A stretch of DNA of 20,356 bases from a virus, in the IMG/VR virus record IMGVR_UViG_3300025698_000077, positions 1 to 20,356 of that record; one strand, 5' to 3'. Position 1 is the first letter of the stretch. Every line of letters starts with the position of its first letter. Positions 2,020 through 17,257 of the stretch are shown piece by piece. Made by a program: the position numbers and the translations under genes. The notes under the pieces are model-generated. The model was not told where the DNA came from, did no database searches, and saw only the letters and a program-made list of their open reading frames with translations.

Positions 2020-4035
2020 TTATTGTACACCAGCATTACCATCACCGACAGCACCAGCACCTTGTTCATCAGCTATCATTAAATCAACCAACTTCTGTTC
2101 ATTCTTATTCTTACTATCATTATCTTGTTTGTCAAGTTCATGTTGTCTATGTACTCCAGACTCTTGCTCGACAAAGTCAAGATCTTCTTTATCAGACTTA
2201 CTATTAAGACTTCTACCTTTTGCAATCTCTGTTTCTGTCTTAGCCTGCTTAAGCCCAACGTCCACAGCATTCTCTTGGCCCTTAGCCTGTTCATTGTAAA
2301 CCTGAGCTTCCAACAACTGAATCTCAAGCTTAGCCTTATACGCAGCAGCGGGATCTGGTTGTGGCTGGTATTCAGATATCATCTTACTAAGTTCTGGCAT
2401 CTTTCTAAGCCTGGCTATATCGCTAAGTATAATCTGCTTAAATTCAAACGGCATAGTCTCACCTGCGGTCTGCAACATAAACTCTAGGCCAGCAGCTTTC
2501 TCATTATCAGCTTCCGGAGTACTAATACTCAATGTAATATCAAACTCTCCAGCAAGATCATCTCTGCTTATATTAACAAATTCTTCATCAGTTATCCTAA
2601 GAATTTCCTCATCACTGATAAATTCTTGGTTCATACTTATAATCTTTCTACCTATCTGCACGATTCCATTAGCAAGCCGTCTAAGTATGTCAAGTTCTCT
2701 TTTGGTTGTAGCGTCTGTAGCAAGCCTAGCTCCACCAACACTGTTTCCAAGTGAATTCCCTGTAATGCCACCGCTACTAAATGCTTTAACGCCAGTAAGA
2801 CTCTCAGCTTCATTTGAAGTGTATCCAATCATATCCATAGCGCTTCTTGGAACATCAGGATATGTACCCATGTGAAATGCTTGCCTTGGGTCAACATTAG
2901 CATTGAACTTATAATCATCACCACGTTCATACTTACGTGCATTGACTGGATCAAGAGCGTCTTTACGGCTACCTTGCTGCCCATTTGCACTTCGACCCAT
3001 TACATCAAGAATACCTCGTGTAACAGCACCTATGACCTTTTGATTGTCCTCAATCAACGCACCATCTGGTTCACCGTAAACCTGCTTCCTACGTGGAAGG
3101 AATTGAACCAATGCAAAAGGTATCTTTTTATCTGGGAATGGAGTTTCTTCCAGTCTAAGCATAACGTCACCTGCCCACGCAGCTACAATAGGTTTCGTTA
3201 CTCCATTACCATCTATATCCCAATATCCAAAATACCTATAAACAACAAACTTCTTTCTAGCATCGTCTCTAAACCTAAAGTTACTTGCATCTGCACTTTC
3301 AAAGTCACTATCGGTCAAACTATCAGATGAATCGATAGATATCTTATCTATATTCTTATACCTACCATCTTTCTTAAGCTCACTCTTACTTGTCTCAAAA
3401 CTCCTAATAACAAACTCTGCTTTATCAAGATCACCATCGCAAGTTGGATCTATTATTGTATTATTATAGTGACATATTTCTAATGTTGGTTGGTTCTTAA
3501 CTGAAACAGTTTTAACCTGCAACTCAACACCAACCTGAACAGTTTCACCTGTTGCTGGGTCGATCCCCATAACTGGAACTTCTACTTCACGTTCGTCATC
3601 TTCTTCTTCCCAGCCTAACTCAACTATTACTGTTCCCTCGTCAACACACGTTCTGATAAATTCATCTATAAACTTAACTTTATTCAATTGATGGTTAAAC
3701 TGATAGTTCAGTACCTGTGCATTCTGTATGGCTGATTGCTTGTCTTCAAATGTATTTGGAGCAACATTAAATAAATCTGTAGTGCTAAGAAATGGATCAC
3801 TAAGACTTGGATACCTCCACTCAGCTTGTTTCCTGATAACCTTTGGTACTATCTTGCTCCTACCAGCCTTAGTCTTGATTATCTGCTCACCGTTATAGTT
3901 CTTGAGCCAGTTATCAACTTCTGTGACATGGGCATTGTGTGCATGTTCTGCCTCAGTAACGTCAGCCTTCAAATCTTGCAAACTTGGAGCATTTTTCCAA
4001 TCAACGAGACTATCATTATTTATATCATCGGACAT
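2020..4035 (-). CDS. Portal protein, N4/SU10-like
   Basis: A 671-residue protein that would form the dodecameric ring at the DNA entry vertex, binding terminase during packaging and the tail adaptor afterwards. The N-terminal region has GRSKIVPKVIRKQAEWRYPS followed by LSDPFLSTTDLFNV, typical of portals of the N4 / phiEco32 / SU10 groups, and a central stretch FALVQFLPRRKQVYGEPDGA that resembles portal stem/clip regions. The C-terminal third is coiled and rich in Gln, Lys and Glu. The ORF can begin at a GTG three bases earlier, but GAGG spaced six bases from ATG 4035 favours the ATG. It is the first gene after a 128-base gap that may carry a promoter. Confidence 0.88.
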   Translation of the reverse strand: MSDDINNDSLVDWKNAPSLQDLKADVTEAEHAHNAHVTEVDNWLKNYNGEQIIKTKAGRSKIVPKVIRKQAEWRYPSLSDPFLSTTDLFNVAPNTFEDKQSAIQNAQVLNYQFNHQLNKVKFIDEFIRTCVDEGTVIVELGWEEEDDEREVEVPVMGIDPATGETVQVGVELQVKTVSVKNQPTLEICHYNNTIIDPTCDGDLDKAEFVIRSFETSKSELKKDGRYKNIDKISIDSSDSLTDSDFESADASNFRFRDDARKKFVVYRYFGYWDIDGNGVTKPIVAAWAGDVMLRLEETPFPDKKIPFALVQFLPRRKQVYGEPDGALIEDNQKVIGAVTRGILDVMGRSANGQQGSRKDALDPVNARKYERGDDYKFNANVDPRQAFHMGTYPDVPRSAMDMIGYTSNEAESLTGVKAFSSGGITGNSLGNSVGGARLATDATTKRELDILRRLANGIVQIGRKIISMNQEFISDEEILRITDEEFVNISRDDLAGEFDITLSISTPEADNEKAAGLEFMLQTAGETMPFEFKQIILSDIARLRKMPELSKMISEYQPQPDPAAAYKAKLEIQLLEAQVYNEQAKGQENAVDVGLKQAKTETEIAKGRSLNSKSDKEDLDFVEQESGVHRQHELDKQDNDSKNKNEQKLVDLMIADEQGAGAVGDGNAGVQ

Positions 4036-5856: not shown

Positions 5857-6306
5857 TCATTCTACTGGAAACGAGGTTTCTGTACCATTGTCGTAAGCAT
5901 ACGCTCCTGTTCCCAAGAACAACTCACTTGCTGCTGATTGGTAGTTTGAATGAGAGTCAGCTCTTGTAGACTGAAAGAATACATCACGACCAGCAGTAAT
6001 ACCCTGAGTAGTATCGTCACCACTCTGCCAGAACAACGGAACCAGTGGAGTAACTATACGACCAACACCAAGTACCCAATCAAGGGCCGAGTCTTCTTTG
6101 TAGAAGTTCTGTTGTCCCATGTTACCAGCGAAGGCCATGGCCATAGCAATCCTTGCACCCTCGGAAGTGGAAGCGTTCATGCCTTTTGTGAAAGCTTTGA
6201 ATCTATCTGTGTTAGCCTGAGCTATCAAATTATTAGTTTTCTCGTGAGCACCACACCCAGACAGCAACATAAATACTATGATCACACACCCTATTGACCT
6301 CCACAT
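5857..6306 (-). CDS. Outer-membrane lipoprotein of the lysis region
   Basis: A 149-residue protein with a signal peptide MWRSIGCVIIVFMLLSGC ending in the lipobox LSGC (Cys18), so it should be lipidated and sorted to the outer membrane; residue +2 is Gly, not the inner-membrane-retention Asp. A second hydrophobic stretch lies at WVLGVGRIVTPLVPLFW. The ATG overlaps the stop of the preceding membrane protein (TGATG) and follows GGGGG spaced seven bases. The pairing of an inner-membrane coiled-coil protein with a lipoprotein is the usual arrangement of two-component spanins, but this protein is longer than typical Rz1 proteins and lacks their proline-rich region, so a virion or superinfection role is also possible. 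Confidence 0.75.
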   Translation of the reverse strand: MWRSIGCVIIVFMLLSGCGAHEKTNNLIAQANTDRFKAFTKGMNASTSEGARIAMAMAFAGNMGQQNFYKEDSALDWVLGVGRIVTPLVPLFWQSGDDTTQGITAGRDVFFQSTRADSHSNYQSAASELFLGTGAYAYDNGTETSFPVE

Positions 6307-6668
6307 CACTTGTCCCCCTTACTTAAATTGTCAAGCTTCTCGAATACAAAAACCAATTGCTTTTCTATGTTCTCCAGCGCAGCAGCTACACTACTGTCAA
6401 TATGGTTATGTTGTTCCTTGTTCTGGGCCATCCACATATCAAACCTTGTTTGCCACAACTCTTGCTTGGCATTACAGAGACTTAGTGGCGTTACGTTTTC
6501 TCCTAGTTTCTCAATTGCATTAACTATTTTTTGATCCATTTGCTCTTTAAGTGCCACGATACTAGCAGTGTTCTTACTTGACTTGTTCTTCAAAAAGAAG
6601 AAACTCCCCATTCCGGCACTAGTCACAACTCCTAATGCCCATTCCACTACAAGATCTGGCACATCCAT
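6306..6668 (-). CDS. Membrane-anchored coiled-coil protein, spanin-like candidate
   Basis: A 120-residue protein with one N-terminal hydrophobic segment (about residues 6-26, VVEWALGVVTSAGMGSFFFL) followed by a Lys/Ser-rich turn and a long helical, heptad-like region to the C-terminus (EKLGENV, ENIEKQLVFVFEKLDNLSKG). The topology fits an inner-membrane spanin subunit with a periplasmic coiled coil, and the next gene encodes a lipoprotein. A holin-like role is also possible. Start ATG 6668 lies twelve bases after the previous stop. No specific family identified. Confidence 0.65.
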   Translation of the reverse strand: MDVPDLVVEWALGVVTSAGMGSFFFLKNKSSKNTASIVALKEQMDQKIVNAIEKLGENVTPLSLCNAKQELWQTRFDMWMAQNKEQHNHIDSSVAAALENIEKQLVFVFEKLDNLSKGDK

Positions 6669-6680
6669 ATTGAGATTCCT

Positions 6681-7157
6681 TTATACTTCTGGTTTAACTT
6701 CAAGAGCTTGACCTTCACCTTTTGTCAGTAATACACCCAATGATTCTTGGTAGATCAACCTCTCGGTGTTCATTAGAGCGTCATTTCCAACTTGTATCCT
6801 GAATCTCCAAGTACCGTCAGCAAGTTCAGTCTGTGTTGACTTACGAAAATAATCTTCATAAGCTATTCGCTCATCTTCTGCGTCTTTACTGTTTGGCCAG
6901 TCTACAGGAACAAGATTGTCTTTCTCGGCAGTAGTAAATACATGGTAAAACATACCATCATCTAGTATACAACCATATCCATGACAGGCAGCATATGCCT
7001 CCGCAGTAAACAGGTTCTCGCCAGCATCGCTAAATTGATATATTGTTCCAAGAGCATGCTCTTTATTTGTTGAAGATCTGCGCCTGAATCGTTCTCCGAT
7101 TTCAATCATCACCGGTTCGTCAATCACTTCTTCTGGTACTATTATTTTTAATGCCAT
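6681..7157 (-). CDS. Conserved-looking phage protein downstream of tail fibre
   Basis: A 158-residue soluble, acidic protein with no signal or membrane segment. It starts MALKIIVPEEVIDEPVMIEI and ends in a Glu/Lys-rich tail. The ATG has GGGAG seven bases upstream. It follows the tail fibre gene after an 81-base gap and precedes the spanin-like gene. The segment NLFTAEAYAACHGYGCILDDG contains two cysteines and small residues but I cannot assign a fold. It could be a fibre chaperone or virion protein, by position only. Confidence 0.7.
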   Translation of the reverse strand: MALKIIVPEEVIDEPVMIEIGERFRRRSSTNKEHALGTIYQFSDAGENLFTAEAYAACHGYGCILDDGMFYHVFTTAEKDNLVPVDWPNSKDAEDERIAYEDYFRKSTQTELADGTWRFRIQVGNDALMNTERLIYQESLGVLLTKGEGQALEVKPEV

Positions 7158-7238
7158 TTCTATCTCCCGTTAAGTGAATATCCCGTATGGGTAAGCGTCT
7201 TTCTCTACCGTCTATGGTTTCAAATATCAATAATATTA

Positions 7239-8600
7239 TCAAAGACAGCCGAGGAGCTTAATCTCAGCATCCTCAGCCGTGGTACGTGGTGTTTTATAAT
7301 CCCATCGCTCGACTGGTTTACCCTCACAAGCTGTCATATAGTACTGTTTGTTTTGGTTCATTACTGGGTTTACTTCTCTTATGGAAATTGAACTTAACTC
7401 GACAGTTGCTGACAACGGTTCGATGTTGATATCTGGAATAGTTCCATCTGCTACTATGGTGAGGGGTGTACCTTCCCATGTAGTGTACGCGAGAGAACCA
7501 ACCTTTATCCTGAAAGACCCAGCCTCCAGCTCACAGTCAACATTGTAAGTTGCCGACAGCGTTACATCACCTAACTGAGACACTACTGGTCCAAAAGCCG
7601 CTCCAGAGTATGTAAGGACTTTATTGGCTACAGTCCACCCAGTTCCAAGGGTCCAATCATCAGCACCATAAATAAACTGACCATTGATTACAATATCAGC
7701 CCCAAGCTCACCCCAATTGGTTTGTGTCATAGGTAGTGGATGCCCAAGTCCATCAGTAAGATAATTCCCACTGGTACTAGCAGCTTCCATATCCATAATA
7801 GCCTGAGACACCATAGGCTCACCATTCCAGAATGTAGGGATAGTTACGCTATATGTGCCTATAATGTTACCCTCTGAGTCGTGACAGTCTAGTCCTTCGC
7901 CTTCGTTGATTGGAATAAGAGTTCCATTAATATCCACATTTCTTATGATCCCACTAAACGAAACGGTGTTTACTGAAATGTTTTTGATAGCGAAGGATAC
8001 ACCTGTTGGTATGTTAATGCTCTGCGTTTGATCTCCAACTGTAAGAGTGAGTACACCGTTGACTCTCACAAACGAACCAAACCCTGTAACATTAGTTACT
8101 AAACTAAAGTATCTAGTGTTGTCATCATTTAATTTGGCAGACCATTTTCCACCTAGAATCCTAAGCAAGCAAGGACCAGCACCAGCACCAAACAACATCT
8201 GGTGAACTAGATTACCTGCGCTTGAATCAACATAAAAAGTTATGTAAAAATCGTCATTGAATACCACTTCAGTATCTAGTATTATTTCATCATCAATCCC
8301 ATTAAAAGTACCAATAGGGCTAGTCTCAGGTGCGTAATGCGTATCTTTACAAAAGTTAAATGTTCCGCCTTTGTGATAAACATCAAATTGACTAACAGGG
8401 TAAGGGTACATCACGTCATCACCAGTAATCTCCCACCAACCATCAACAGCATTAGGGTTATACCCAGACGACTGAACACCAGCTCTCATGTTAGCTGTAG
8501 TCCCATCCCACGTAATGGTATGTAATCCGGTGTCGTCCCACGAGGTTAGTCCAGCTAGTGGACCTTCACTTAATCTAAAATGTGCAAATAGAGTACTCAT
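7239..8600 (-). CDS. Tail fibre / receptor-binding protein, lectin-like, C-terminal portion
   Basis: A 453-residue beta-rich protein. Residues about 85-230 (FNGIDDEIILDTEVVFNDDF, then YITFYVDSS and later FSGIIRNVDINGT) look like a concanavalin A/LamG lectin domain. Residues about 310-415 (NGQFIYGADDWTLGTGWTV and following) resemble a carbohydrate-binding beta-sandwich. The C-terminus is short and cysteine-containing. It probably binds a cell-surface glycan. The N-terminus (LFAHFRLSEGPL, then a TWDGT stretch) matches the middle, not the beginning, of related phage fibre proteins. The missing front appears to be encoded at 8968-9348, with an HNH gene between. The ATG overlaps the HNH stop (ATGA), and the Shine-Dalgarno GGAGGCTGGAG lies inside the HNH gene. 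Confidence 0.8.
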   Translation of the reverse strand: MSTLFAHFRLSEGPLAGLTSWDDTGLHTITWDGTTANMRAGVQSSGYNPNAVDGWWEITGDDVMYPYPVSQFDVYHKGGTFNFCKDTHYAPETSPIGTFNGIDDEIILDTEVVFNDDFYITFYVDSSAGNLVHQMLFGAGAGPCLLRILGGKWSAKLNDDNTRYFSLVTNVTGFGSFVRVNGVLTLTVGDQTQSINIPTGVSFAIKNISVNTVSFSGIIRNVDINGTLIPINEGEGLDCHDSEGNIIGTYSVTIPTFWNGEPMVSQAIMDMEAASTSGNYLTDGLGHPLPMTQTNWGELGADIVINGQFIYGADDWTLGTGWTVANKVLTYSGAAFGPVVSQLGDVTLSATYNVDCELEAGSFRIKVGSLAYTTWEGTPLTIVADGTIPDINIEPLSATVELSSISIREVNPVMNQNKQYYMTACEGKPVERWDYKTPRTTAEDAEIKLLGCL

Positions 8601-8971
8601 GCTCCAGCCTCCCTCATCTTATGGTGCACAACTTCATCGCTGGTTAGCTCCCTCCCGAGAACTTCTCTGGCTATATCTCTATGTTCCCTGACTCTATCGC
8701 CATGCCTGTCTGTAATATAAATATAACCTTGACTGCTCAGCCTAGATACACCATTCCAAAAATGCGAGTTCTCACCGCTTACCTTTTCCAAGAATGAGCA
8801 TCCGCATGAAAATGTATTGTTTCCACTAAGGTTATCACCCATAACAGCTACTGCGTTTCCACAGTCACACTCGCAGTGCCAAATTTCGTCTATACGTAAG
8901 ACTGTGAGTCTTCCGAACTTATGCCCTGTGAGATTTTCTTTTTTTCCCAACCTACTTAACCAATCAATCAT
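8597..8971 (-). CDS. HNH homing endonuclease, C-terminally truncated
   Basis: A 124-residue protein. The N-terminal half, LTGHKFGRLTVL then WHCECDCGNAVAV and TFSCGC, is the cysteine-rich zinc/DNA-binding module seen in phage HNH and AP2-type homing endonucleases (C33, C35, C37, C56, C58). The C-terminal half (GYIYITDRHGD, REHRDIAREVLGRELTSDEV, VHHKM) is the start of an HNH nuclease domain. Homologues continue past HHKNG with a DNRPENL helix holding the Asn and last His; here the protein stops ten residues after the HH pair begins, so the nuclease is probably crippled. It overlaps both neighbours by four bases (ATGA at each end) and separates two parts of what looks like one fibre gene. Confidence 0.82.
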   Translation of the reverse strand: MIDWLSRLGKKENLTGHKFGRLTVLRIDEIWHCECDCGNAVAVMGDNLSGNNTFSCGCSFLEKVSGENSHFWNGVSRLSSQGYIYITDRHGDRVREHRDIAREVLGRELTSDEVVHHKMREAGA

Positions 8972-9348
8972 AAGTCAGTCCATACGTTGAGGTCATAGAA
9001 TGTACCAGCAGTTGTGAATGTTATTTCCTTCAGTACTGTATCAACAACAGCAGTAGCAGTTCCTTGATACGTTATAGTAGCATCAGAAGGCATATCCGGC
9101 ATGGATAGTTTTTCATCAGTACCGTTCACAAAAATACAACTAGACTTGCTCATATCAAAGTTTTCAGCGTCTGGCTTCTTCCATGAGTCTAGTTTTTGAT
9201 CTACACCATCATCATTTCCCCTGAGCCAAACAAGGAGGTCTTCTGAGTATGGAGGCTGAGTCAACACCCCACCACCAACTGGCAATCCGAATGGATTACC
9301 TATTGTTGGCGCAATTATCTTCATTATAGTCGGATAGATAACACCCAT
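8968..9348 (-). CDS. Tail fibre N-terminal portion, upstream half of a split gene
   Basis: A 126-residue protein with a Gly/Pro-rich start (APTIGNPFGLPVGGGVLTQP) and a beta-rich domain SEDLLVWLRGNDDGVDQKLD through TYQGTATAVVDTVLKEITFT, ending in GTFYDLNVWTDL. In related phage fibre proteins such an ending leads straight into a PLAEG-type segment and a lectin domain, which is what begins the gene at 8600. It is therefore read as the front part of a fibre split by the HNH gene. The stop overlaps the HNH ATG (ATGA). AAGGA lies eleven bases before the start, a rather long spacing. Confidence 0.7.
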   Translation of the reverse strand: MGVIYPTIMKIIAPTIGNPFGLPVGGGVLTQPPYSEDLLVWLRGNDDGVDQKLDSWKKPDAENFDMSKSSCIFVNGTDEKLSMPDMPSDATITYQGTATAVVDTVLKEITFTTAGTFYDLNVWTDL

Positions 9349-9353
9349 GTCAA

Positions 9354-9641
9354 TTAATTCCTTATAATAACAGGTTGTTTACTAGGCTTCTTTCTATGAT
9401 ACAGTCTAACCCCAGTGCCTACCGCAGTAATCCTTAGTTTTATTGGAGCGAATATGCTTTTAGCTGTATTATCTACATCAAGATTGGCACTAACTCCTCC
9501 ATCTTTATATTCAAACCAATCAGAGGTAGTCTCACCCATCTGATCTACAGCTACTGTTCCTGTTGGGTCTGTCATGGCAATTGTAATCTTATCACCATCG
9601 GGGCTAAGCATCTTAACCCCTCCTGCTTGTTCTATCCACAT
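9354..9641 (-). CDS. Small beta-rich tail-tip protein
   Basis: A 95-residue protein made of short beta-like segments (DGDKITIAMTDPTGTVAVDQ, SANLDVDNTAKSIFAPIKLR) with no membrane segment. AGAGG five bases before the ATG is a good Shine-Dalgarno. It lies among tail fibre genes, five bases upstream of the fibre N-terminal gene, so a structural or connector role is likely. The sequence does not match a family I can name. Confidence 0.65.
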   Translation of the reverse strand: MWIEQAGGVKMLSPDGDKITIAMTDPTGTVAVDQMGETTSDWFEYKDGGVSANLDVDNTAKSIFAPIKLRITAVGTGVRLYHRKKPSKQPVIIRN

Positions 9642-9667
9642 AACGCCCTCTCTACGGGTTTATTAAA

Positions 9668-10342
9668 TTAATGCCATCCACCACTGAAATCATAGGCCAA
9701 TATATCGGCAGCAGTACTACTTGCGTTAGACATGATAGCCTTAATGGCAATAATGTGTCCAGCCATGGTAGTATAATTATCAGAACCACGAAGGAAATAT
9801 TCTTTAGCAAATGTTATAAACTCTTCATTTGTAAATGGAACAAACCCTTCTGTAGTAAGCCAAGATCCAGCATTAACAGTACCACGAAATGTTAAAATTG
9901 GATCTGTTCCAAGTTGAGATAAACAATCATTCTGTGTAGCCTGAATTGATTCTTTATCAGAAGTAAAGCTAACACCATTATAACTAAAATCTTTAAGATT
10001 TTCTTCTTTTTTTCGTTCAGCTAATGCTTCATTATGGTTTTTAAACGCAAGGTCCTTGGCAACATCAACATCGAGACCATAATACTCATTAAGCTTGTTC
10101 TGTGCTATTTGATTAACATCATTAAGAATCAAATCATAGGTGTCATAAGGAACGCTTTTCTTGATACCATCTACAATATGAAAACCTTTATCTGGTTCGT
10201 AATTAACTTTAACCATTCCTGCAAATGATACTGACGGTACACATCTGTTAAAATCTTCAACCGTATCAAATGCAACTTCATTTCCATTACTATCTCTAAG
10301 AAGTATAAACTTAGCTTTTTCTAACAACAATATTCTTTTCAT
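9668..10342 (-). CDS. DUF4376-like tail fibre accessory protein
   Basis: A 224-residue protein. The C-terminal half, from FSYNGVSFTSDKESIQATQN to FITFAKEYFLRGSDNYTTMA, follows the pattern of DUF4376, a domain common in phage fibre and assembly proteins (a tryptophan-containing GSWLTTEGFVPFT segment between two helices). The N-terminal 100 residues are mixed alpha/beta with a charged helix (ALAERKKEENLKD). It starts three bases after the stop of the tail-collar gene. It may be a fibre-tip or fibre-assembly protein. Confidence 0.7.
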   Translation of the reverse strand: MKRILLLEKAKFILLRDSNGNEVAFDTVEDFNRCVPSVSFAGMVKVNYEPDKGFHIVDGIKKSVPYDTYDLILNDVNQIAQNKLNEYYGLDVDVAKDLAFKNHNEALAERKKEENLKDFSYNGVSFTSDKESIQATQNDCLSQLGTDPILTFRGTVNAGSWLTTEGFVPFTNEEFITFAKEYFLRGSDNYTTMAGHIIAIKAIMSNASSTAADILAYDFSGGWH

Positions 10343-10345
10343 TAT

Positions 10346-11386
10346 CTATTCCATTGCAAAAGGTAGATTTCCTTTTACTATAAAGTTTAATGCGAACCAA
10401 GGAGGTAATCCCTCTCCAGACCACGTAATAGCATGATCATGATCAACTATCTCTGGATGTTGTCTATCACATGACATAGTTGCTGGCCCTGTATACATAT
10501 GAGTATGACCAAACGAATCTGTAAGACCATCAACGACAAGTTGATTATTACCAGAAATAGTACCATCACCAGTAGCTGACGCTTTAATGAAGCAATCTCT
10601 AAGGTCAAGAGTGCCTAGTGTACCATCACATTTTAACCAACCCTCTGGAATAATATCTGATTGGTACATAACAATAGGATTACCACCAATCCTAGCAGCA
10701 GCAGCCTTCCACGCCCTTAGAACAACATGTTTAATCTGACCTGTAACTGTAGTATTGGCTAAAGTATGGTCATGAGCAAACTGCGTACCTTGCCAAGTAT
10801 TTGTATTTCCGCAACCAAAGTCCGCCATATTTGGCCACATTGTCATATGATCATGACTCATAATAGAACTGTTGGTAGCTATACTATGTGCAGCAGCTCC
10901 AGCACCGGTTACACTAAAACCTTTAGCATAACCTCCATTTGCTTCAAGAGCATCAAACGCTATAGCATTACTAATCTCACCATCAGAGAATAATATACCA
11001 TTTTCTGGAACAAATGATTTAGCTGTAGCTTGTATCAGTTTAAGATTTGAAGACTCAGGTTTGTAAGAAAAATCTACAGTATGATCGTGAGCACCCTGTG
11101 GTGTATATGTGGTACCGGGTTTACCACTACCATTACCCCAATCTGTACCATATGCACTCTGTAAACCACCAGTATGAGCACCACTAGTTGTTGTTGTAGT
11201 AGTAATCAATGGAGAATCTGTAGCCCCTAAAGTCTTTGTACCTGATGCACCAACAATATAAAAGTCATCAGCATAAGTAAACGCTTGAAAGCCAGTAGGG
11301 ATGATTAGACTATCCAACCCTATAATGGCTCCAATCGGTAGCATAATACCGCTGGAACCAACAGTATACCACCAATTTTTAAACAT
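10346..11386 (-). CDS. Tail-collar fibre protein with two collar modules and HxH motifs
   Basis: A 346-residue protein. Residues 243-275 (IIPEGWLKCDG, then LDLRDCFIKASATGDG) are a phage tail-collar domain, and residues 15-60 show a degenerate second copy (LIIPTGFQAF, then DDFYIVGASGTKTLG). Each copy is followed by metal-binding-type HxH motifs: HDH at about 100, 178 and 205, then HTH at 294 and HDH at 316. Similar HxH motifs bind iron in T4 gp37 needle tips. The two halves end in similar segments, IKHVVLRAWKAAA and PPWFALNFIVKGN. This is probably a trimeric fibre tip. The start overlaps the previous gene by eight bases. Confidence 0.85.
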   Translation of the reverse strand: MFKNWWYTVGSSGIMLPIGAIIGLDSLIIPTGFQAFTYADDFYIVGASGTKTLGATDSPLITTTTTTSGAHTGGLQSAYGTDWGNGSGKPGTTYTPQGAHDHTVDFSYKPESSNLKLIQATAKSFVPENGILFSDGEISNAIAFDALEANGGYAKGFSVTGAGAAAHSIATNSSIMSHDHMTMWPNMADFGCGNTNTWQGTQFAHDHTLANTTVTGQIKHVVLRAWKAAAARIGGNPIVMYQSDIIPEGWLKCDGTLGTLDLRDCFIKASATGDGTISGNNQLVVDGLTDSFGHTHMYTGPATMSCDRQHPEIVDHDHAITWSGEGLPPWFALNFIVKGNLPFAME

Positions 11387-12221
11387 ACCCTACCCCACAA
11401 ACACCACCATCAATATTAAAACCACCATCCTCACTACAAAAGACAAGTCTATCTCTATATGCAGACAATGTTGGAACTGATCCACCTGGCCACTTAACAG
11501 CTGGGCTCCAAGTAATGTTATGATTAGAACTATTAAGTATTAACATTATAGTTTTATGTAAATTAGATTCAAAACCAGTAAAATAAATACTTGTTGCTCC
11601 AGCAATATTTATAGTAAATACATCACCAAGAGATACGTCTATAACAATTGCTCCTGATGTTTCTACAACATTTACTGAAGTGTTTCCACCTGAACCAATA
11701 GCAACCCACATTGTATTGTTAAATACAGATGCAGTATGTTCTTGAATACAGCGCCAAATATTTAAACCATAAACAACAATATCTCCAACATAATATTTAG
11801 CTGATAATGAATGAAATTTAACTGCTATAATATCAATAGGATTTCCATATGGATCACCAATACCAAACTTAAGATCTGTTGTATTTACAAACATCTCTCC
11901 ATGTCGCATTGATCCATTATCTGGTTCATCGCTTGCAGTATCGTAGATATCTGCATCTTGCGCATCGTTCATAACCTCAATAGTAATACGACCTTCAACA
12001 CTACTAGCAGCACCATGTGCTTGATTAAAAGCTTCACAAGTGAATACATTACCACTTGTATTTGTAACCTTTATTACTTCTTCTTCTACAGTAACATACA
12101 TCCAATCTCCAGAAGAGAGGATTGGAAACTGTGAAGCACTTGCAACAATCATCACAGTATGGCCAACCTCAACCGGAGAGTTAAGTACCGTAGAAGCATT
12201 ATTGCTATATCTAACTTTCAT
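11379..12221 (-). CDS. Tail fibre protein with chitin-binding-like module
   Basis: A 280-residue protein. Residues 1-85 are beta-rich and repeat-like. Residues 105-140 (RHGEMFVNTTDLKFGIGDP and on) match the short tail-tip segment common in phage fibres. Residues 142-175 (KYYVGDIVVYGLNIWRCIQE, then HTASVF and MWVAIG) resemble a type-3 chitin/carbohydrate-binding module (YxxGDxV, WxC, HT, W). The C-terminus (ITWSPAVKWPGGSVPTLSAY, then RLVFCSEDGG) is a typical fibre end domain. AGAGGG lies before the ATG. It overlaps the tail-collar gene and probably assembles into the same appendage. Confidence 0.8.
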   Translation of the reverse strand: MKVRYSNNASTVLNSPVEVGHTVMIVASASQFPILSSGDWMYVTVEEEVIKVTNTSGNVFTCEAFNQAHGAASSVEGRITIEVMNDAQDADIYDTASDEPDNGSMRHGEMFVNTTDLKFGIGDPYGNPIDIIAVKFHSLSAKYYVGDIVVYGLNIWRCIQEHTASVFNNTMWVAIGSGGNTSVNVVETSGAIVIDVSLGDVFTINIAGATSIYFTGFESNLHKTIMLILNSSNHNITWSPAVKWPGGSVPTLSAYRDRLVFCSEDGGFNIDGGVCGVGYV

Positions 12222-16384: not shown

Positions 16385-17257
16385 TTAGCCTCCAGGCCAA
16401 AAGTCTTTAACCAAATTATTCCTATTAACCGGATCAGGTTCCATCTCCTTAAACTCAGCATCAATAGCATCTTCTCTTCTCCTAATGACATCCATCTCAG
16501 CGATACCTTTTGCGCTCATACCACCAGACTCTATCATCCTCTTTTGCTCGACAGCCAAGGCTCTTGTGATACTCCTAAGATCCTCCACAGTATCATTGCT
16601 TACACCAACATTAATATCCACCTTCAAGCTCTCAGGGGCCTTTAAGTGCTCTATTAGGATAGCTGCCGCTTTCATTCTAACGGTATCACTGCTAGATGTC
16701 CTCATCAACGTTGCCTCAACATTAATAGCTTCCTGAAGGATATCACTATTAAGCAAATGTATAGCGGGCAATGTTCTCTCATGTATCTTCAACACCAACG
16801 GTGTCTTGTTGTACATTGTAACATGAGCAGATATATTCTTATTCGGGACCCCCTTATCAACCAGTCTCTGGAACCTGTCTGGGAACACCTTGACCCAAGA
16901 ACTCATCTGAGTATCGCCAAGCAGTTTATACGTGACATACTTTACAGCGTTGGCATAATCACTAATCTTCCACTTACCCTCCTGTAACACATTGATCCAA
17001 GAAAGAACGTTCTCCCTATAGACATCCCTAATCTCACTGTCGTCAATTGATGAATTAATAAGATCCACTATCTTCTGAGTTATATTCTTTCTAACACCAG
17101 TCGGAGCACATGCTCTAACCTGATGTATTGTCAACTCAGTAGCATCTATCGGTATTGGGGTATTCTCGCCATCAATTACATTAGTCATAACAACTGGCTC
17201 TGACCTTTGTATCTTGGTATCCTTAGCGCTAACCTTGACTCCTGGGTCCCAACTCAT
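16385..17257 (-). CDS. Terminase small subunit candidate
   Basis: A 290-residue protein directly before the large terminase. The central region VKVFPDRFQRLVDKGV followed by NISAHVTMYNKTPLVLKIHE and, later, VRMKAAAILIEHLKAPES, matches a family I recognise upstream of the large terminase in many short-tailed phages and usually taken as the DNA-recognition subunit. The rest is helical, with a long C-terminal helix (DAIDAEFKEME). The ATG overlaps the stop of the RepL-like gene (ATGA). It is longer than classical small terminases (about 150-180 residues), so the label is a probable role, not proven. Confidence 0.7.
   Translation of the reverse strand: MSWDPGVKVSAKDTKIQRSEPVVMTNVIDGENTPIPIDATELTIHQVRACAPTGVRKNITQKIVDLINSSIDDSEIRDVYRENVLSWINVLQEGKWKISDYANAVKYVTYKLLGDTQMSSWVKVFPDRFQRLVDKGVPNKNISAHVTMYNKTPLVLKIHERTLPAIHLLNSDILQEAINVEATLMRTSSSDTVRMKAAAILIEHLKAPESLKVDINVGVSNDTVEDLRSITRALAVEQKRMIESGGMSAKGIAEMDVIRRREDAIDAEFKEMEPDPVNRNNLVKDFWPGG

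Follow-up and report, generated by a model that had tools for sequence, protein, structure and literature searches.

An open reading frame (ORF) for an HNH endonuclease-like protein sits tightly packed between two fibre-like ORFs of an uncultured N4-like bacteriophage, which raises the question of whether the endonuclease gene has divided one gene into two cistrons or lies, as such genes usually do, between two genes that have always been separate. The locus is found entirely on the minus strand, at positions 7239-9348 of what we call the window, the whole stretch of 20,356 nucleotides analyzed here (IMG/VR record IMGVR_UViG_3300025698_000077). Our best explanation, which we consider probable, is that an HNH insertion split a single-chain fibre-like gene, so that the locus now consists of three translationally linked cistrons with a probably inactive HNH remnant in the middle. 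A preliminary description had proposed that an HNH gene was domesticated within a tail fibre gene, without forming an intein. That interpretation is supported as regards the split of one chain and the lack of an intein; its notion of domestication is not, the HNH protein being truncated.

The phage was placed by means of its terminase, which shares 56-60 % identity with the terminases of Vibrio phage PG11 and the Pectobacterium phages CB1, Horatius and Possum. Possum and Horatius are given as Schitoviridae in PMC9569702, and judged by this protein the window phage belongs with the N4-like viruses of that family; the ORFs of the 20-kb window include no giant virion RNA polymerase. An N4-like terminase on another contig (L020, 3065-5587) is itself interrupted by a Hint/LAGLIDADG intein that lies in frame within the Walker A motif (RGGAK/ALSLETQ...VTHN/TT), and a second intein may start there at HDDA/CSSGDT. 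The neighbourhood of the split locus is a structural operon, with the locus situated downstream of 280- and 346-aa genes that match tail-fibre PHROGs.

Three ORFs make up the locus. The first (P0003, 126 aa; 8968-9348, minus strand) would be the 5′ part of the divided fibre-like gene and comprises an N-terminal segment and a small beta domain, with the C-terminal end GTFYDLNVWTDL. The second (P0002, 124 aa; 8597-8971, minus strand) is the putatively inserted HNH homing-endonuclease-like gene, truncated at its C-terminus: a Cys-rich N-terminal part is followed by the start of an HNH_3 domain as far as VVHHK. The third (P0001, 453 aa; 7239-8600, minus strand) would be the 3′ fragment, an assignment based on the match of its residues 7-112 to the protein of a relative described below. 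The ORFs occupy three different frames and overlap at both joins by the four nucleotides ATGA, an arrangement ordinary in this genome (the ORF table holds further cases at 6306-6309 and 17254-17257). Read directly from the sequence, a Shine-Dalgarno-like GGGAGG (8608-8613, minus strand) is formed by the final codons of the HNH ORF, whose last stretch, AAGATGAGGGAGGCTGGAGCATGAGT, puts this motif 7 nt ahead of the ATG of the 453-aa ORF at 8600; the 3′ end of the HNH ORF through to the start of P0001 reads AAGATGAGGGAGGCTGGAGC-ATG. The preliminary description had listed the three ORFs, the two overlaps, the three frames and a Shine-Dalgarno for the downstream half at the HNH 3′ end, all of which we confirm from the sequence.

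Three further IMG/VR contigs, 99.93-99.98 % identical at the DNA level, represent the same phage. All three have the identical arrangement, with no frame change in the 126-, 124- or 453-aa ORF in the parts compared, across which the sole change in the three ORFs is M135T, a missense substitution that one contig has in its 453-aa protein. Since the locus is intact in these near-identical contigs, its arrangement is unlikely to be an assembly error. The 346- and 280-aa fibre-type genes (window 10346-12221) hold most single-base differences among the four contigs, and these are missense, as expected for active receptor-binding proteins. In a very close relative (L013), an endonuclease gene with a complete HNH_3 domain (and a weak AP2 one) lies at 3458-3973, between the 221- and 159-aa genes; the window phage lacks this gene.

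The evidence for an originally single chain comes from the closest relative having this locus, IMGVR_UViG_3300033153_005235 (L014), found via a terminase search and 84 % identical in that protein. L014 and the window have corresponding genes, arranged alike, as far as a 95-aa gene (72 % identical), directly after which L014 has one uninterrupted ORF of 369 aa (P0004, 16978-18087) with no HNH gene. Over its residues 1-79, P0003 shares 62 % identity with the N-terminus of P0004; residues 7-112 of P0001 match residues 209-310 of P0004 at 52 % identity (E 8e-28). Joined in silico, the two pieces align to P0004 with a score of 480, compared with 268 and 266 for the separate pieces, and with no gap at the cut, across which GTFYDLNVWTD/TLFAHFRLSEG pairs gap-free with GKFYDLTLQDNTQDIHYRIAEG of L014. 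The 11 residues immediately left of the cut align to GKFYDLTLQDN, exactly at the predicted place, with a score of 27 that is the best 11-mer match in P0004 and that only 11 of 200,000 random 11-mers of that composition equal or exceed. The same gap-free joined-chain alignment delimits a putative insert of about 379 nt (8595-8973, minus strand; either end may be off by a few bases), which would follow codon D125 in the 126-aa ORF and precede codon T3 in the 453-aa ORF. That the flanking proteins are adjacent in one chain, as had been suggested, is thus borne out by P0004, which is collinear with them across the cut and is the one single-chain homologue spanning both in the searched collections (n = 1). 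Elsewhere in L014 (16051-16651), the homologue of the 224-aa protein of the window appears frameshifted near 16450.

The correspondence between the two phages is partial. Before the cut L014 has a Laminin-G-like segment, P0004 scoring 18.1 bits against Pfam Laminin_G_3, below the 27.6 cut-off; the small domain at the end of P0003 has its counterpart in the C-terminal domain of P0004 (46 % over 48 aa); and residues 113-453 of P0001 are without an L014 homologue except for a weak 31 % match elsewhere. Judging from these alignments, the fibre-like proteins of both phages are evidently mosaics with a history of domain shuffling. Neither P0001 nor P0003 nor the joined chain has a match in 50,697 phage records, no relatives of the pieces were found in the genome contigs searched, and among the viral contigs this locus was recovered only from the window phage, L014 and, partially, L046. 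DNA-pattern matches on two further contigs (L039 and L040) were rejected as chance, being outside any fibre-like ORF. Family search names neither piece a fibre, with no significant Pfam or PHROG match for P0001 or P0003; P0001 has no PDB match, and the similarity of the junction to an internal P0001 stretch is not significant. AlphaFold2 models, built from only two or three sequences, are poor (mean pLDDT 33.6 for P0004 and 30.9 for P0001). A fibre or receptor-binding function of the split protein can only be inferred, from its position and the sub-threshold Laminin-G match.

The middle ORF was called an HNH endonuclease in the preliminary description, and its homology justifies the family name: P0002 matches PHROG HNH endonuclease families (phrog_374, E 5.8e-16; phrog_20891, E 5.6e-6) far above chance. 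Its catalytic domain is incomplete, as the protein ends soon after HHK. These PHROG matches stop well short of the profile end, that to phrog_20891 reaching only position 178 of 219. The best phage homologue covering the full length, an ORF of Gordonia phage GAL1 (KR053194, L023; 36 % identity over residues 15-118), has a complete HNH_3 domain, whereas P0002 stops shortly after HHK: it ends VVHHK-MREAGA and then a stop, and lacks the Asn and last His of the HNH domain. Where P0002 reads HHKMREAGA and terminates, the GAL1 protein goes on as HHKNADRADNRPENLELW; aligned from VHHKMREAGA of P0002, the GAL1 counterpart is VHHKNADRADNRPENLELWNR. Pfam HNH_3 is detected in the GAL1 ORF (E 1.1e-10) as well as in the L013 HNH gene, with no such hit in P0002, and the missing part of the domain is absent from the other reading frames. 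Catalysis and metal binding by the HNH fold depend on this Asn and the last His. As P0002 has lost both, it is probably an inactive remnant of a dead endonuclease, and the idea of a domesticated HNH protein is unsupported. The GAL1 HNH reading frame (1501-1830) is unannotated, the annotated coding sequence there using a different frame.

We propose that an HNH homing-endonuclease gene entered a virion gene that encoded one fibre-like chain in an N4-like phage, and did so at a segment boundary; the direction of change was, we infer, insertion rather than fusion. The inserted endonuclease lacks the final part of its catalytic domain, which probably leaves it inactive. The outcome would be three cistrons whose translation is presumably linked: an N-terminal piece of 126 aa, what is left of the HNH gene, and a C-terminal piece of 453 aa that would start at a new ATG, with the Shine-Dalgarno provided by the end of the remnant.

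The preliminary description had the fibre forced to form from two polypeptides. Such an insertion may have left either a working or a broken protein, and we consider the re-association of the two polypeptides into a working structure about as likely as the loss of the protein's function. It is quite possible, at somewhat short of an even chance, that the insertion broke the fibre-like gene for good, that both pieces are decaying and that adsorption proceeds via the other fibre genes, the collar-type 346- and 280-aa genes upstream; this shares its insertion event with our best explanation and differs from it in the outcome. Those neighbours are indeed of tail-fibre type and carry most of the missense changes among the four near-identical contigs, and L046, by its end a close relative with 90-94 % DNA identity on both sides, is without the whole cassette, suggesting that the cassette can be lost. 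In L046 (4998-5644) the 95-aa gene breaks off at residue 38 and runs straight into the 158-aa gene, with window positions 7141-9526 missing; because this junction is within 700 bp of the contig end and both flanking genes are broken, it may be an assembly artefact. Decay sits poorly with the 126 and 453 codons, which stay open in all assemblies, and with the well-placed Shine-Dalgarno and start that the downstream piece keeps. In the conserved parts compared with L014, nonsynonymous change is far below synonymous, which also speaks against decay; this mostly reflects the time before the insertion, and since the comparison is saturated at synonymous sites, dN/dS cannot date the constraint to after it. 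As to a functional outcome in its most specific form, we hold it somewhat unlikely that the insertion gave rise to a two-chain virion adhesion protein in which the dead HNH ORF is kept as a translational bridge, its last codons being the ribosome-binding site of the second chain.

Descent of the 126- and 453-aa genes as separate genes, with the HNH gene intergenic as usual and the single chain of L014 a secondary fusion, would do away with the split altogether, and appears improbable. Fibre genes are modular, and free-standing HNH genes between structural genes are known in this phage group, the L013 gene at 3458-3973 being one. P0003 could moreover end naturally at the cut, because its last domain is similar to the domain with which the L014 protein naturally ends and L014 has another, Laminin-G-like segment at that place. 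However, the residues left of the cut run collinear and gap-free into the 453-aa protein, which itself begins midway through sequence that is internal in L014. Secondary fusion in L014 is the less likely course, since it would demand precise removal of the HNH gene and since the 453-aa protein starts within a conserved segment.

Splicing out of the HNH gene as part of a group I intron or an intein, which would give a single chain again, is very improbable even though HNH genes are often found inside phage group I introns and spliced virion genes exist (the tape measure and terminase genes of ICP1; PMC10448857): an intron is unlikely because the insert of about 379 nt is mostly HNH homology (residues 9-118), with no space for an intron core, and because an Rfam search of 7000-10500 at permissive thresholds (E up to 1) gave no match, while the flanking RNA does not fold better than shuffled sequence, which forms hairpins at least as strong as those near the starts of the HNH gene and P0001. 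An intein is excluded, as had been claimed at the outset, by the three different frames and by an insert length that is not a multiple of 3.

The insertion of an endonuclease gene into what had been a single fibre-like gene, our preferred explanation, has precedents among genes divided without splicing, namely mobE in nrdA of Aeromonas phage Aeh1 and mobA in gene 60 of phage T4; gene 43 of Aeromonas phage 25 is an ambiguous case (PMC2988022). The split nrdA of Aeh1, also cited in PMC10448857 and PMC8351571, encodes a fully functional reductase (PMC2988022; original Friedrich et al. 2007). It is alike in that a free-standing HNH gene lies within a coding sequence, with an ORF on each side, one ORF in relatives and no splicing; the window locus likewise has an uninterrupted relative gene that lacks the HNH gene (L014, n = 1), an endonuclease-family ORF between the pieces (truncated here) and no intron or intein. 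The Aeh1 gene encodes an enzyme shown to work in pieces, whereas the host gene in the window would encode a fibre-like virion protein interrupted by a truncated HNH ORF. In T4 the mobA insertion similarly divides the gene for one topoisomerase subunit into two cistrons (PMC2988022); the host gene is a different one, and the T4 topoisomerase, split subunit included, serves as a working model enzyme. Gene 43 of phage 25 (DNA polymerase) is a two-part gene with the endonuclease gene seg43 in between (PMC2988022); unlike in the window, its origin is ambiguous, a relative being split without the endonuclease, and its parts co-purify and are active. In its anatomy the window locus appears like these genes in pieces, and its fibre-like host gene and putatively dead endonuclease set it apart. 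In the open-access literature, our coverage of which was incomplete and leaves such an absence unproven, we came across no tail-fibre gene described as split by an endonuclease gene without splicing.

The enzymes ribonucleotide reductase, topoisomerase and DNA polymerase supply most of the known cases of unspliced splitting by endonuclease genes. If our explanation is true, a virion structural protein has been split in the same way, by an endonuclease that is now dead and with reading frames that have stayed intact, which would show how a split is tolerated after the element has ceased to move, and would offer one more path by which modular fibre proteins arise. Should the pieces be nothing but debris, the locus would instead be an example of how a fibre gene is lost.
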